22,619 bases of DNA from a virus, in the IMG/VR virus record IMGVR_UViG_3300030102_004066, positions 1 through 22,619 of that record; one strand, written 5' to 3'. Position 1 is the stretch's first letter, and each line of letters starts with the position of its first letter. This document shows positions 8,777 through 21,728 of the stretch, in pieces. The position numbers and the translations under genes are program-made. The notes beneath the pieces were generated by a model that worked only from the letters and a program-made list of their open reading frames with translations, was not told where the DNA came from and did not search any database.

Positions 8777-8906
8777 CACCGTCAGTGCTCAGCACCTGAC
8801 CGTTTAATCCGTTGCCGTTAGGCAACTTCAGCTTGTTGTCCGCTGCAGTTGCCGAGGCTTTAATTTTTACATAGCCAGTTGTTTGGCCTTTTAGTCGAAT
8901 TCCCAT
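8760..8906 (-). CDS. short fiber-like protein (48 aa), possibly truncated
   Basis: The start codon shares a base with the stop of the collagen-like fiber gene (TAATG at 8904-8908), good evidence that it is translated. The 48 residues begin [20 protein letters not shown] and continue AADNKLKLPNGNGLNGQVLS and TDGDGNQP. This is the usual start of phage fiber head-binding segments of the G.V.LKAP...NTLTLP.GNG..GQ.L.TDG type, where a Trp-containing strand normally follows TDG. Here a TGA stops it. The next 24 codons are open in the +1 frame (see the 8693-8776 entry). A damaged fiber gene or a very small accessory protein are both possible. Confidence 0.5.
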   Translation of the reverse strand: MGIRLKGQTTGYVKIKASATAADNKLKLPNGNGLNGQVLSTDGDGNQP

Positions 8907-11611
8907 TAGATAACTACCCAGAAACTACCGCTAGGCACCGTAACTGTAACAGCGTTGTTAATGGTTAACGGACCTGCAGAAATTACGTTTTTACCAGTTC
9001 CAATCGTATAGCTGGTGGTAATGGTGTTGTCATGTTCAAGCGCCCACTTATCACTCCCCCCACCAGTGGCGCCTGAAGCAGCGTTTGTCCAGCTGATGGC
9101 ACCTGATGCGCCTCCACTTGTAAGCACTTGACCACTAGTGCCGTAGTTCGCTCCAGCAATGCCTACCTGTCCGGCTGGGCCAACACGAACACGTTCAGTG
9201 CCCTCAGTTGTAATTTTGAAATGACCATTAGATCCAGTATCAACAACTTCCGCTTCTGTATTCCCCTCAGTAATTTTGTCAGGATCAGCAGCTGTTCCAC
9301 TTGACGCAGCTGTAATCCGCCCCTGGTCATCAACAGTAATGCTGCTAAGCGTATAACTACCAGCAGTAACAGTAGTGTCAGCCAACTTCGCAGCTGTTAC
9401 TGCATCGTCAGCGATGTAAGCAGTGGCAATCGGCGTTGCGTTCCAAACACCTGTTGCAAGGGTGCCGACTGCAGTCAGGCTTGAGGTAACAACTGCGCTG
9501 CCCAGGCTTGTTGCATCAAGAACCTTGGTGCCCGCAATACGGAACTCTTTGGCACTGGCGATGTTGACGTGCTCAGAGAAGTCCCAGCTGTCGGTGCTGT
9601 TCGTCCAGACAATCGTGTGGTCCGTTGCACCCTTGAGTGTGATGCCGCCACCGTTAGCCGTGGCATCTGTTGGGGTGGAAACACTGCCAAGCTCGATGTT
9701 CTTATCATCGACGCTCAGCGTTGTGCTGTTGACAGTTGTTGTTGTCCCGTTGACCGTAAGGTTTCCGGCAATCGTGATGTTGTCTTCAAGCTTTGCTGAG
9801 GTAATTGCCCCATCAGCGATTTCGCTGGTGCTAATCGTTCCAGATGAAGCAGACGTAATCCGACCTTGCGCGTCAACAGTGATGTCTGCTGCCGTGTAAC
9901 TTCCAGCCGTCACAGATGTATCTGCCAGCTTCGCTGCAGTTACAACGTCATCGTCGATTGTGAAAGTAGCACCACTGTTTGAAACAGTGATATCTCCTTT
10001 ATCACCATCAGTAATTGTTTGATCGACCCAAGCCAAAGCACCTGAGCCGTCTGTTTTCAAGACTTGGTTTGCTGAACCTGCAGTAGCAGGCATCGTAAAT
10101 GTAATGTTGCCACTAAAATCGCTGTGCGCTGGAGCCTTAATTGCTGCGTAATGAGCATTGCTGACTTCGCAGTACAAGCGAACTTCTGACTGCGAACCAG
10201 AGTTTTTAATTCCAAGAATTCCACTGGAAATGAACTTAGAGTTCATATCCAGATCACCACCAAGTTGCGGGGTGGTATCTAAAACAATGTCTGTGCCTCC
10301 ATTGGCACCATCAGCACCGTCCGCACCAGCAGGCCCTTGAGCACCAGTAGCTCCTGTTGCTCCAGTGGCGCCCCTAGGAATGGAAAAATCAAATGTCGCA
10401 GCAGAACTACTACCGCTATTCGTAACGGTTGCGCTTGAACCAGCGGCACCTGTAGTGACTGTTCCGACAGAGATTGTCGCTGCTGCACCATCAGACCCAT
10501 CTGCTCCGGCAGCGCCATCAGCGCCAGCTGGACCCGTAGCGCCAGTTGCTCCAGTGGCGCCTGTAGCTCCCCTAGGAATGCTGAAATCCAGTGTTGCAGC
10601 GGAGCTACTGCCACTGTTTGTGACTGTTGCGTTGGATCCTGCGGCACCTGTCGTAACCGTTCCAACAGCAACTGTTGCGGCTGCTCCGTCTGCTCCATCT
10701 GCTCCATCTGCTCCGGCAGCGCCAGTAGCTCCGGTCGCTCCTGTATTCCCTGTTGCTCCAGTAGCGCCTCTTGGAATAGTGAAATTTAAAGTTGCAGCGG
10801 TACTTGTTCCTGTATTTGTTACTGATGCATTAGTGCCTGCATTACCAGTAGTGGTCGTGCCAATGCTTATTGTTGCTGAGCCTTGGGCTCCATCTTGACC
10901 AGCAGGTCCTTGTGGGCCTGTCGCACCAGTAGCTCCACGGGGGACTGTGAAATTAAGGACAGCAGCTGTGCTTGTCCCAGTATTTGTTACTGACGCATTT
11001 GATCCTGCGGTGCCGGTTGTCGTAGTGCCAATGCTTACGGTTGCAGAGCCATCAGCTCCATCTGCTCCTGCAGGACCCTGGGGTCCGGTTGCTCCTGTTG
11101 CACCAGTTGCTCCAGTAGCGCCGGCAGGGCCTTGAGGTCCAGTCGCGCCATCGGCGCCATCGGCTCCAGCCGCACCAGTTGCCCCAGTCGCGCCTGTAGC
11201 TCCTTGTGGAATTGAAAACGCAAAAACAGCTGCGTTAGAAGTTCCTGTATTTGTAACTGTGGCGCTTGAGCCAGGCGTGCCTGTACTAACTGTGCCAACA
11301 GCAATAGTTGCAGCTGCTCCATCAGCGCCGTCTGCCCCAGCTGCTCCAGTTGCCCCAGCTGCGCCTGTTGCGCCTGTTGCACCTTGTGGTCCAGTCGCAC
11401 CCTGAGGACCTGTAGCTCCAGTTGCGCCATCCGCTCCGTCAGCGCCTGCTGGACCTTGAGCGCCAGTAGCACCAGTTTCACCCTGAGGACCCTGAGGCCC
11501 GGTCGCACCAGTCGGACCTGCTGGCCCTTGAGCGCCTGTGGCTCCGCGAAGACCAGTAGTAAGGACCAGGGAGGAGGTAGTGACCTTGGTAACAACAACT
11601 TTGTTAGTCAT
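8906..11611 (-). CDS. collagen-like tail fiber protein
   Basis: 901 residues. Residues 1-20 ([13 protein letters not shown]...) are a short head. Residues 23-438 alternate collagen Gly-X-Y tracts (mostly [12 protein letters not shown]) with five copies of a 40-residue beta-like module that starts A-T-(I/V)-x-(V/I)-G-T and ends F-(S/T)-(I/V)-P-(Q/R)-G-A-T-G. Residues 470-530 hold a fiber domain with EVRLYCE and [15 protein letters not shown]. Two related repeats with [15 protein letters not shown] (about 559) and [15 protein letters not shown] (about 740), each followed by I(T/S)(V)D(A/D)QGRIT, form the shaft. The end contains [13 protein letters not shown] and SGSFWVVI, a likely trimer tip. 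Such proteins form long trimeric side or tip fibers. The gene overlaps its upstream neighbour by ATGA. Confidence 0.9.
10298..11545 (-). repeat. collagen tracts interleaved with five 40-residue modules
   Basis: Five modules lie at residues 100-140, 189-229, 245-285, 310-350 and 377-417 of the fiber, each flanked by Gly-X-Y tracts. Modules 4 and 5 are most alike, as are 2 and 3, pointing to stepwise duplication. The repetitive DNA leaves long open frames on the other strand and frames that are not genes. Confidence 0.85.
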
Positions 11612-18493: not shown

Positions 18494-18834
18494 CAGGGTT
18501 CAAAAACTTCGCGAAACGTTGCCTGAATACTGGCACGGTTTAAATAGGGAATCGACTTGCTCCACTCTTCACAAACAAATTTGGAGCTGCTGCTTTCTCC
18601 TGGCGGCGTAAAATCAAAGCTTGCGTTGTCTGCAGCACGAGCGTCGAGAAAAGTTTCAATAGTGTCAGCGTCTGTTTCTGACACCTCAAAGGACAAGTTA
18701 AAAATTTTGGGATTTTGATTTAACCCAAGACTTGTACGTTGTTCATAACCGTCCCCAAAACGCACTGTCCGCACTACCGGGGCACTGCTTTTCTGAATCC
18801 CGTAAGTTGGTGTGATTGAGGGAAAAGTAGCCAT
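18493..18834 (-). CDS. M: minor tail protein M
   Basis: 113 residues, close to lambda gpM (109). The start MATFPSITPTYGIQKSSAPV and the following RTVRFGDGYEQRTSLGLN are the family signature. Later come NLSFEVSETDADTIETFLDA and a C-terminal FTPPGES...KFVCEEWSKSIPY and ATFREVFEP. gpM joins the tape-measure initiator complex to L. It is coupled to both neighbours by one-base TGATG overlaps (18832-18836 and the L start at 18493). Confidence 0.93.
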   Translation of the reverse strand: MATFPSITPTYGIQKSSAPVVRTVRFGDGYEQRTSLGLNQNPKIFNLSFEVSETDADTIETFLDARAADNASFDFTPPGESSSSKFVCEEWSKSIPYLNRASIQATFREVFEP

Positions 18835-20699
18835 CAGACTGCAAGAAGACCGCCGGGACGTTTTTGCTTGACTAGCTCGGCTTGCACTGCAGCACCAAGC
18901 ATTTTGCCGAGTTGTGCTGCCTGATTGGAATCGCCTTCAACAGACGAGCCAGACGCATCCACGTTTACCACAATGCTAGACCCGCCCATTGCGTTGTTTG
19001 GAATAATATTGCCCTGCGCTCCAGGGATAAACAACTCAGGGCCACGTTCACCGACCAAATAAGGACGGCCTGCCCCGACACCTCCTCCGTTCGCTTTTCC
19101 GGTAATTGGATTTGGAAAAAGTTTTGACCCAGGAAACAATGCGTTTAAACCAAGCGCAACGTTTAAATCTAAAAGACGATTAGAAATATTTCGAAGAATA
19201 TTGCTTGCTACCTCACCAAGAGTCTTTGTGCCCTCTACCGCTGAAGAAATTGCATCAACAACACCAGTCTTAATGATTGTACCAATGTCTTTATAAATAG
19301 CAGCAAGATTTTCTGCCGCTTTCTTTTCTGCAGCCTGTCTTTCCTTTGCAGCATCTGCTAAAGCCTTGTCTTGTTTTTTCCGCCTATCTACAATGTTTAA
19401 TATCATAAATTGATTTTCAAATTCATCTATAATTGCTTGTCTCCGTTCTGGAGCAAGCAAGTTTAAATCACGCTCAACCGCTTCCTTGTCAATAATTAAC
19501 TGCAAAGATCTTTTTTCTTGAGTCGTCATAGCTTCAGCTAGCCGACTTCTTTCTTTTGCCTTTTGCAGCATTCTTGTGGCCAGCTCTTCTTGTCTCTGTA
19601 ACGGGGTTTTCTTTTTATCTTCAGGCGTTTGAACGGTTTTAGCGAACTCTGCGATCTCAAGTTCAGGAATCGACATCCTTGCTTTTCCTGTTGCAATGGC
19701 AATCTGATCAGATATTTTTTTTGCTTGAGTTTGGCTTGTAGGAAGTGTTCCTTCAAATCCAGCTGCACGAAGGTTTTTGGCGAAGTTTTTTATATCTTGG
19801 CCTCTCCTGCTGCCAGCTCTAAATTTTTGAGCTGCTAGCTCGACTCCAGTCAGGCCCGTCGCTTTATCAAACGCCTGCTTTGCCGCTTGTTCACCTGCTG
19901 CTTTTGATAAAAACTCAAGAATTGGCCCAGCAACTTTGGCAATGCCGGCCAACACTTGAGTAAAAATAATGCTTAAATTGTTTCCTAAAGTTGCTGCATT
20001 TTCTCCAAAAGACGTTAAAGCATTTACGCCATCTTGTCCCACTCTTGACGCTAAAAGCTTTGTCGCAAGTTCGGCAGCTTTAGCTTTTGAACCATACCTT
20101 TCAATTTTCTCCAAAAAGCTTTGAGTTTCCGTTCCGGCTATGCCGGTCGCAGAAGCGACCGTATCAAGGTCAAAAGATAATTCATTGAATGCTTGTCCTA
20201 CTTCTGCTGTTCGGCCAACCAAGTTTTCGATTTGACCAGCAACAACTTGAAGACCAATTCCGCCTGCAAATCCGCCAAATGCTCCGCCAATCGCACCAGC
20301 TGCAGCTTGAAAAGGGCTTCCACCAAACAGCAACGGAAAGCCGCCACCAAGGACAGCTTGACCAAGCCTTCCACTACCACCAAATCCACCACCAAATCCA
20401 CCTACTCGTCTACCTCCTCCACCTCCGCCAGATCGCGTCGCTTGACGTTGCAAAGATGCGTTTTCAGTTAAAAGTTTGTTCTCACGTTGCAGCTCTTTAT
20501 TGATTTTTTTAAGTTTGGTTAGTTTTTTATCTAAAGTTCTACTAGTTTTATCAAGGCTTGCTCCCCCTTTTTGCTGTACCTTTTTAAAAGCTTCGCTTAT
20601 CTTGTTTGCGGATATACTGGCTTCGTTTAACTTTTTAGTCAGCTTGTTTAGCTTAGCTTCGCTAAATTTAATGGCTATATTTACGCCGTAGTCAGCCAT
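18834..20699 (-). CDS. tail tape measure protein
   Basis: 621 residues. Residues 10-85 form a Lys-rich coiled coil (KLNKLTKKLNEASISANKIS). Residues 91-110 are glycine-rich. Residues 112-160 and 235-265 are hydrophobic and may insert in the membrane. A long helical middle (about 320-480) is full of Lys, Glu and Ala. The end has the motif KANGGGVGAGRPYLVGERGP then ELFIPGAQGNII, seen in many tape measure proteins. If length follows the lambda ratio (853 residues for about 135-150 nm), the tail is near 100 nm. Position after G/T and before M is exactly lambda H. Confidence 0.93.
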   Translation of the reverse strand: MADYGVNIAIKFSEAKLNKLTKKLNEASISANKISEAFKKVQQKGGASLDKTSRTLDKKLTKLKKINKELQRENKLLTENASLQRQATRSGGGGGGRRVGGFGGGFGGSGRLGQAVLGGGFPLLFGGSPFQAAAGAIGGAFGGFAGGIGLQVVAGQIENLVGRTAEVGQAFNELSFDLDTVASATGIAGTETQSFLEKIERYGSKAKAAELATKLLASRVGQDGVNALTSFGENAATLGNNLSIIFTQVLAGIAKVAGPILEFLSKAAGEQAAKQAFDKATGLTGVELAAQKFRAGSRRGQDIKNFAKNLRAAGFEGTLPTSQTQAKKISDQIAIATGKARMSIPELEIAEFAKTVQTPEDKKKTPLQRQEELATRMLQKAKERSRLAEAMTTQEKRSLQLIIDKEAVERDLNLLAPERRQAIIDEFENQFMILNIVDRRKKQDKALADAAKERQAAEKKAAENLAAIYKDIGTIIKTGVVDAISSAVEGTKTLGEVASNILRNISNRLLDLNVALGLNALFPGSKLFPNPITGKANGGGVGAGRPYLVGERGPELFIPGAQGNIIPNNAMGGSSIVVNVDASGSSVEGDSNQAAQLGKMLGAAVQAELVKQKRPGGLLAV

Positions 20700-20732: not shown

Positions 20733-20927
20733 CTACCGCCTTGTCATGGTTTGAGCCCTACTGGACACCCTAGATCGATCCATGACTTTCTCTTCTTCCT
20801 CGCCCTTGATCTCGTAATAAGCAGCCCAACCGATTAACTCCTCTTGAGTAAGGCGCTGAGTGAGCTGCAAAACAGTCATTCCCAGCTCGGTAGCGAGAAA
20901 AAACAGAAAAAGCCAGTCACTACGCGC
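20733..20927 (-). CDS. tail chaperone T extension, read only by +1 (or -2) frameshift from G
   Basis: The 220 bases between G and the tape measure are not empty. In the frame +1 to G an open frame runs from after a TAG at 20985-20987 to a TAG at 20733. From the proposed shift it encodes 64 residues: ARSDWLFLFFLATELG, then MTVLQLTQRLTQEELIGWAA and YYEIKGEEEEKVMDRS. A hydrophobic start, TQEELIGWAAYYE and a charged end are typical of the T domain of GT chaperones, which in lambda joins the tape measure to the tail-tube subunit. The fused product would have about 179 residues. An internal ATG at 20879 could also give a free 48-residue T, but lacks a good Shine-Dalgarno. Confidence 0.75.
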   Translation of the reverse strand, partial: ARSDWLFLFFLATELGMTVLQLTQRLTQEELIGWAAYYEIKGEEEEKVMDRSRVSSRAQTMTRR

Positions 20928-21273
20928 TTTTGAGATCTGCTTTCGCTTCCTCCACCTTGTTTTCGGCGCCGGAGGACAGCATGGCTAGCTGAATCTCTTG
21001 AAGAACTGAAGCGTCAACAGCATTCTTGAGCTGAGCTTTCTCGCCATCCTGGAACAGACGTTTGCCGTCTGCATCCAATGCCTTTTCAATCATCAGGCCA
21101 AGCGCAAAGTCGTTGGCGTCATCCGTTCCAGTCTTTTTTTGGATGCTTTCGCGTTCAGCAATGGTCAAAGGGTGCCAATACACCTCAAGCACCACCTCAT
21201 CGCCGTCCCTGACTTCATGCTTATATAGCTGACTAACGCCAAATTTATTCCGAAGAAGCTCTGCAGCTCGCAT
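20920..21273 (-). CDS. tail assembly chaperone G
   Basis: 117 residues. The sequence contains MRAAELLRNKFGVSQLYKHE, a beta part VVLEVYWHPLTIAERESIQK and helical DDANDFALGLMIEKALDADG, followed by AVDASVLQEIQLAMLS. This fits siphovirus tail chaperones (DUF1799/TAC-like) that bind the tape measure protein and are absent from virions. Place directly before the tape measure, size and the hidden T frame downstream all support it. The stop TAG is followed by a U-rich stretch. It starts 26 bases after the tail terminator; the spacer has a weak Shine-Dalgarno only. Confidence 0.85.
   Translation of the reverse strand: MRAAELLRNKFGVSQLYKHEVRDGDEVVLEVYWHPLTIAERESIQKKTGTDDANDFALGLMIEKALDADGKRLFQDGEKAQLKNAVDASVLQEIQLAMLSSGAENKVEEAKADLKSA
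20926..20934 (-). promoter_or_regulatory. candidate +1 frameshift site CTC AAA AGC
   Basis: In G frame the mRNA reads CUC AAA AGC GCG UAG. After decoding AAA (20931-20929) the Lys tRNA can move one base onto the next AAA (20930-20928) with perfect pairing and continue GCG CGU in the T frame. It lies two codons before the G stop. This is the best site I see in the 60-base overlap of the two frames; other sites in that overlap have poorer re-pairing. Confidence 0.5.
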
Positions 21274-21299: not shown

Positions 21300-21728
21300 C
21301 TACGCGACAGCCGTAAACTGGCAAGAAATAACCCCTACGAAATGAGAACGATCCTCTAGATCCAACGGCGTTGGCCCATTGATGTCCAAAACCCTAGGAA
21401 CAGAACTAAAGGTGTCTGTATAACTTGGAGCGTTTACTGAGGTAAGTCCGTCAATTACTGCCTCGCTGAGTACAGACAGCACTGACGTTCCAGTACTCTT
21501 AGGTACATATACGTTGCATTGAATCGTGCCAGAGTAATAATCCTGCGAAGCACCTTGGTTTTGCAGCGTAGACTGTCCAAAATTGACCGACATCAAAATA
21601 TATTTTTTGGCCTTGCCCGGAGCGATAAACGCCACATTGTCGTAAACCATCAAGACATCACTATCAGCAGTGGCAACGGCATCAGTTACAGCTTTTTCAA
21701 AAGCAGCACGAGCATTAACGAGTGTCAT
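21300..21728 (-). CDS. tail terminator protein (DUF4128/lambda U-like)
   Basis: 142 residues. The pattern MTLVNARAAFEKAVTDAVAT, then VYDNVAFIAPGKAKKYILMS, followed by YYSGTIQCNVYVPKSTGTSV and a C-terminal strand VGVISCQFTA is that of DUF4128-type terminators, which cap the tail tube and join it to the head. Order (neck, terminator, chaperone, tape measure) agrees. In lambda the tube protein V comes next, but here G follows after 26 bases. Overlaps the neck gene by ATGA at 21725-21728. Confidence 0.8.
   Translation of the reverse strand: MTLVNARAAFEKAVTDAVATADSDVLMVYDNVAFIAPGKAKKYILMSVNFGQSTLQNQGASQDYYSGTIQCNVYVPKSTGTSVLSVLSEAVIDGLTSVNAPSYTDTFSSVPRVLDINGPTPLDLEDRSHFVGVISCQFTAVA

Follow-up and report, generated by a model that had tools for sequence, protein, structure and literature searches.

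Organization of the tail gene locus

The window, by which we mean the whole 22,619-nt stretch of viral DNA that was analysed (IMG/VR record IMGVR_UViG_3300030102_004066), carries tail genes on its minus strand (Table 1). They follow the order terminator, G, T, and tape measure, with two overlapping frames ahead of the tape measure gene, as is found for frameshifted GT chaperones. The 3′ end of G reads GTG GAG GAA GCG AAA GCA GAT CTC AAA AGC GCG TAG, and a gap of 220 nt separates it from the start of the tape measure gene at 20699. No stop codon interrupts the +1 frame from about 20984 until the one at 20735..20733. Its first codon past the predicted slip site is GCG (20927..20925), and the 64 residues encoded from there begin ARSDWLFLFFLATELG / ARSDWLFLFFLATELGMTVLQLTQRLTQEELIGWAAYYE, end with TMTRR, and terminate 33 nt 5′ of the tape measure gene (18834..20699), while the −1 frame meets a stop codon 44 nt past the G stop. 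The initial annotation, made from the letters of this DNA, had proposed a T-like domain hidden in the +1 frame behind G. Its placement of G (21273..20920, minus strand), its 64-residue +1 T, and its 220-nt gap were all reproduced, as was its statement that a −1 slip would end early. An Rfam scan and a tRNA scan of the window found nothing.

Table 1. Features of the G–T locus on the minus strand of the window
Feature	Position	Strand	Evidence
Tail terminator gene, upstream of G	21300..21728	−	phrog_179 7.4e-12
G, short form of the tail assembly chaperone, 117 aa, zero frame	20920..21273	−	phrog_344 6.4e-6, phrog_20784 3.5e-24; best PDB match of the model HK97 2ob9
GGAGGA, Shine-Dalgarno-like element, −22..−17 from slip codon	20948..20953	−	GGAGG at −22 in all 82 loci of the window's group
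Predicted slip site AAA_AGC: AAA 20931..20929 in P site, AGC 20928..20926 in A site, skipped A 20928	20926..20931	−	AAAAG in 278/278 +1 loci vs 0/194 −1 loci; AAA, never AAG
TAG stop of G, two codons past slip codon	20920..20922	−	Sequence
T domain, +1 frame, 64 residues + stop TAG, predicted to be translated only within GT (179 aa)	20733..20927	−	phrog_337 5.1e-6, phrog_26456 7.5e-10; pN/pS 0.28 in the window's group
Gene for the tape measure protein, 3′ of GT	18834..20699	−	phrog_1538 1.6e-9 and other tape measure families

The family phrog_344, which matched G, also matched lambda gpG marginally (0.05), and Phage_TAC_13 of Pfam gave weak matches in 6 of 38 G homologues. An AlphaFold model was made of G alone, with alignment rows from the window and viral contigs, and reached a pLDDT of 80.5. 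Its best match in the PDB was the HK97 tail assembly chaperone 2ob9, with YqbN third, at weak scores (E 5e-3, TM about 0.5). The phrog_344 match, the weak Phage_TAC_13 matches, and the weak fold match to 2ob9 relate G to known chaperones; an NCBIfam search with G returned chance matches only.

Elsewhere in the window, positions 8906..11611 (minus strand) encode a 901-aa protein in which several collagen-like GATG-rich stretches alternate with a repeated module (33 protein letters). This protein is probably a tail fibre.

The T domain is conserved in the +1 frame

The tail protein family phrog_337 matched both the T of the window and lambda gpT (4.7e-7), which indicates, at the level of sequence families, that T is homologous to lambda-type T domains. 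A Pfam search with T gave chance matches only. The chance of one given frame staying open across 62 codons was p = 0.04; since openness by itself is weak evidence, a comparison across loci was needed. In the groups of homologous loci described below, the +1 T frame had pS values of 0.42–0.73 and pN values of 0.11–0.21, with a pN/pS of 0.17–0.39 (0.28 in the window's group). These substitution patterns indicate that T is a real coding region under purifying selection at the protein level in the +1 frame.

The frame of T follows the signal at the end of G

The homologous loci came from protein-based scans of viral contigs and from searches of phage records, and 474 of them include the end of G. 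To locate T, we used a profile HMM derived from nine T sequences that represent both frames. T was found in 472 of the 474 loci, in the +1 frame in 278 and in the −1 frame in 194, and the remaining two contigs end too early. Many of these loci are near copies, and at 82% identity they were reduced to 30 +1 and 19 −1 representatives. The phages form an aquatic family related to cyanophages and pelagiphages.

AAA_AG was present in G's frame near the G end in all 278 +1 loci and in none of the 194 −1 loci, and the AAAA run before the G stop that the initial annotation had singled out is thus conserved as AAAAG. The codon after AAA was AGC in 271 of the +1 loci, AGT in five, and AGG in two, while the codon before it encoded Met or Leu in seven spellings. 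In three groups, with 74, 69, and 59 unique sequences, the slip lysine codon was always AAA and never AAG; at the other conserved lysines in G of these groups, both AAA and AAG were mostly used. The canonical −1 heptamer X_XXY_YYZ, in the form A_AAA_AA, was absent from all 278 loci with T in +1. Among the −1 loci, 110 carried A_AAA_AA(C/A), 82 of the P-HS2 type carried A_AAG_GAA, and L202 carried the G_GGA_AAG of lambda; in S-2L no recognised slip site was found.

The position of the shift could also be narrowed down. A stop codon of the T frame lies directly 5′ of AAA in 238 of the 278 +1 loci, that is, between GGAGG and T, and the G stop follows 2–9 codons past AAA. The shift is therefore confined to AAA or the few codons before the G stop, and the only sequence that these codons share among the +1 loci is AAAAG. 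A DNA-pattern scan of viral contigs, whose pattern itself includes AAAAGC and whose loci overlap the first set in part, found 117 loci, with a T match in the +1 frame for 116.

The scan of bacterial and archaeal genomes returned one contig end only (L475:3-71), which is binned in a Sphingobacteriales MAG (JAAXIF010000024.1) and codes for the C-terminal 23 residues of a G with 91% identity to that of the window. It is probably a phage contig in the wrong bin.

Two kinds of −1 loci had features of their own. The P-HS2 type (L088:3480-3510, L208–L287), with T in −1 at A_AAG_GAA and no heptamer, has an invariant RGGGGGA after the G stop TAA. This element lies some 10 nt 3′ of the slip codon and is a strong anti-16S match; no T start codon was found at a normal distance after RGGGGGA. 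The Pelagibacter phages HTVC202P (L085) and HTVC026P (L086) have the −1 site GTA AAA AAA AAC with a run of nine A, which is long enough that transcriptional slippage could contribute.

Sequence context of the slip site

Across 72 sequences of the window's group, the codons GTG GAG GAA were free of synonymous changes, and GCG, which follows them, was almost so. The GGAGG in these codons lies about 17 nt from the slip codon AAA. The AG-345-A17 group has AAGGAGGT or AGAGGAG near −30, with GAG GCT AAA GCC invariant; AG-345-A17 itself is of single-cell origin. In the remaining +1 groups, the sequence near −24 is less strongly complementary to the 16S end. A Shine-Dalgarno spacing of about 17 nt is not expected to push the ribosome in the +1 direction, judging from prfB and dnaX.

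Of 2,117 Ser codons in the AT-rich AG-345-A17 group, only 110 are AGC, whereas this codon is common in the window's and the other groups. Avoidance of AAA AGC in other genes was not observed, the pair occurring at the expected rate. Given that the window's group uses AGC commonly and that other genes show no depletion of AAA AGC, the six bases alone may not suffice. Downstream RNA structure was inconsistent among the groups, with no convincing covarying stem. An upstream hairpin GAGG/CCTC adjoining the slip codon was considered and set aside, because its 3′ arm would sit inside the ribosome with AAA in the P site.

Proposed mechanism and alternatives

G and T very probably constitute one tail chaperone gene decoded by programmed +1 frameshifting, through a slip of tRNA-Lys on AAA_A.GC. 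Most ribosomes would stop at the TAG past AAA AGC GCG and release G. A minority would pause while AAA holds peptidyl-tRNA-Lys and the A site presents AGC, and tRNA-Lys would then move by +1 onto the overlapping AAA with full re-pairing. Ala-tRNA would read GCG, and translation would run on into T to give a 179-aa GT (...ADLK-ARSDW...). Each of the 278 loci allows tRNA-Lys to re-pair at +1, AAA to AAA, and GCN (Ala) then stands in the A site in most of them. The homology, the frame, the selection on T, the invariant signal, and the strict coupling of signal and frame are read directly from the sequences; the shift itself, its +1 (rather than −2) direction, its rate, and a slow AGC we infer. By analogy with lambda, from which both roles are taken (PMC5009743), G would coat the tape measure protein and GT would recruit the major tail protein.

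The +1 slip of tRNA-Lys with full re-pairing had already been put forward in the initial annotation, and the invariant AAAAG, the use of AAA but never AAG, and the +1 frame make it the best-supported mechanism. The survey added three points to that proposal, namely the −1 use at the same place in close relatives, the restriction of the codon after AAA to AGC, AGT, or AGG, and the fixation of GGAGG at −22.

A Mu-like −2 shift would lead to the same T frame, with a product ...DLKK-ARSDW... that has one extra residue, and such shifts are known in tail genes (PMC5009743). In every locus, however, it would place tRNA-Lys on a UNA codon (UGA, UAA, UCA, or UUA) with a U-U mismatch in the first position, whereas a +1 shift retains all three pairs. 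Since the re-pairing of the Mu type is thus lacking, −2 is the less likely direction. We consider it improbable, even when it is credited with the fact that a Shine-Dalgarno-like element at a long spacing would pull the ribosome backward and not forward. Separate translation of T, by re-initiation or from a non-standard start and with no GT fusion, is more doubtful still. The GGAGG 5′ of the slip site does resemble a ribosome binding site, and a start codon stands ahead of the conserved T block in 18 of 82 loci of the window's group and in 71 of 88 of the L192 group. In the other 64 of the 82, however, the first ATG, GTG, or TTG of the T frame lies only within or past that block, four loci of the AG-345-A17 type have no such codon at all, and the T-frame stop between GGAGG and T (238 of 278 loci) stands in the way. 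Because most T frames are start-less before the conserved block, independent initiation cannot make T in general, and it would leave the fixed AAAAG unexplained. T usually lacks a start of its own and is under selection as a protein; in the L192 group, early start codons are frequent.

Slippage during transcription instead of on the ribosome is hardly credible. The slip site is a run of A, but it has only four of them in the +1 loci and transcriptional slippage needs about 8–9, and a constraint on the AG that follows the run would be unexpected. A chance open frame or a sequencing error has next to no probability either. Frame openness alone left some room for chance (p = 0.04), but the same frame recurs in 278 loci with homology to lambda T and purifying selection, so that the comparative data already refute this reading. 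The initial annotation had named a separate T ORF with a strong start and a sequencing error as findings that would overturn it. The former was looked for among the homologous loci and not found, and the latter is excluded by hundreds of independent contigs.

Comparison with known frameshift systems

The locus resembles that of lambda gpG/gpGT in the order of the tail genes, G, T, and tape measure, in the phrog_337 match of T, in a shift near the G end, and in the want of a good T start. It differs in the signal, which in lambda is a −1 heptamer G_GGA_AAG and here a +1 site AAA_A.GC, and in the length of T (144 residues for the annotated T of lambda vs. 64 here). The cyanophages KBS-S-2A, S-H1, and P-HS2 and the pelagiphage HTVC026P have homologous G and T, with the shift at the same place in the gene, but their T is in −1 with A_AAA_AAC or A_AAG, and none has AAA_AG. 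The tail genes of different phages use −1, −2, and +1 shifts, HSTV-2 very likely +1 (review, PMC5009743), and the training data of PRFect contain 350 forward sites (PMC10274946). The haloarchaeal virus HSTV-2, very likely (PMC5009743), and the forward sites of actinobacteriophages (PMC10274946) share the feature that a +1 shift gives access to the second chaperone domain.

In yeast, the slip at A.GU_U and A.GG_C is thought to be driven by slow decoding in the A site (PMC12661321), and the A-site AGC, AGT, or AGG with a skipped A found here resembles these sites. The yeast sites of Ty1, Ty3, EST3, and ABP140 (CUU_A.GG_C, CUU_A.GU_U, GCG_A.GU_U) share the A-site AG(G/U), the skipped A, and a +1 codon that starts with G, but they act on a eukaryotic ribosome, have CUU or GCG rather than AAA in the P site, and belong to unrelated genes. 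The gene of release factor 2, prfB, is likewise a bacterial case of a +1 slip in which the P-site tRNA re-pairs, with a Shine-Dalgarno-like sequence upstream. In prfB a stop codon occupies the A site and the Shine-Dalgarno sequence lies about 3 nt from the slip codon, whereas here AGC stands in the A site and 17 nt separate the element from AAA, so that the arrangement is not of the prfB type.

Apparent repeated reversal of the shift direction

An unrooted tree, with many open forks, was built from G and T with the slip columns omitted. The direction of the shift required five changes on this tree, or four when the longest branches were left out, and its well-supported branches force at least three or four changes. 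G alone gave five changes and T alone three. A single +1 clade was rejected (AU p = 4.5e-5), and uniting the +1 groups around L192, L204, and L296 in one clade was disfavoured (p = 0.017). The direction of the shift thus appears to have been reversed several times in evolution, with 3–5 changes on these trees.

The difference between the two kinds of site can be seen in GAC GTA AAA AAC TAA of L082 (−1) and GAC ATG AAA AGC GCT of L192 (+1). Aligned in the T frame, these loci read AAA AAA CTA AAA and AAA GCG CTA AAG, respectively, and the spacing from GAC to the first AAA is 2 nt vs. 4 nt. We give about even chances to a broader interpretation, in which one lysine tRNA slips either way at one site of one homologous gene, backward on A_AAA_AAC and forward on AAA_A.GC. 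Lineages would have switched at least three times, by a 2-nt change in length and a new following codon, and AAA_A.GY would be a bacterial counterpart of the yeast A.GU and A.GG signals, aided by a distant Shine-Dalgarno-like element through an action not described so far.

Few conserved signals are known for programmed +1 frameshifting in bacteria, and it is still a question what makes a ribosome shift forward or backward. These phages offer a natural experiment, since homologous genes with one site and one lysine tRNA shift in opposite directions, and a simple rule splits the 278 loci from the 194 with no exceptions. Tail chaperones made by frameshifting are known, and rare +1 cases are among them (PMC5009743). 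A search of the open-access literature returned no description of AAA_A.GC as a signal, of GT in these phages, or of a homologous family in which the direction has reversed repeatedly. The signal and the reversals look new.

GT in annotated relatives

No GT fusion is annotated in the relatives checked, KBS-S-2A, S-2L, S-H1, P-HS2, MED4-117, HTVC026P, and HTVC202P, so that the analysis supplies a hidden gene for these phages. In the Synechococcus phage S-H1 (L084:2875-3018), T is annotated as the stand-alone hypothetical protein AZB50580.1, which starts within the T domain and is likely a misannotation of a −1 frameshifted GT. The BFVD entry D6PII1 (UniProt), a viral protein that shares 74% identity with G over the aligned part, is 179 aa long, exactly the predicted length of GT, and may be a GT fusion that arose from a missing A in sequencing.
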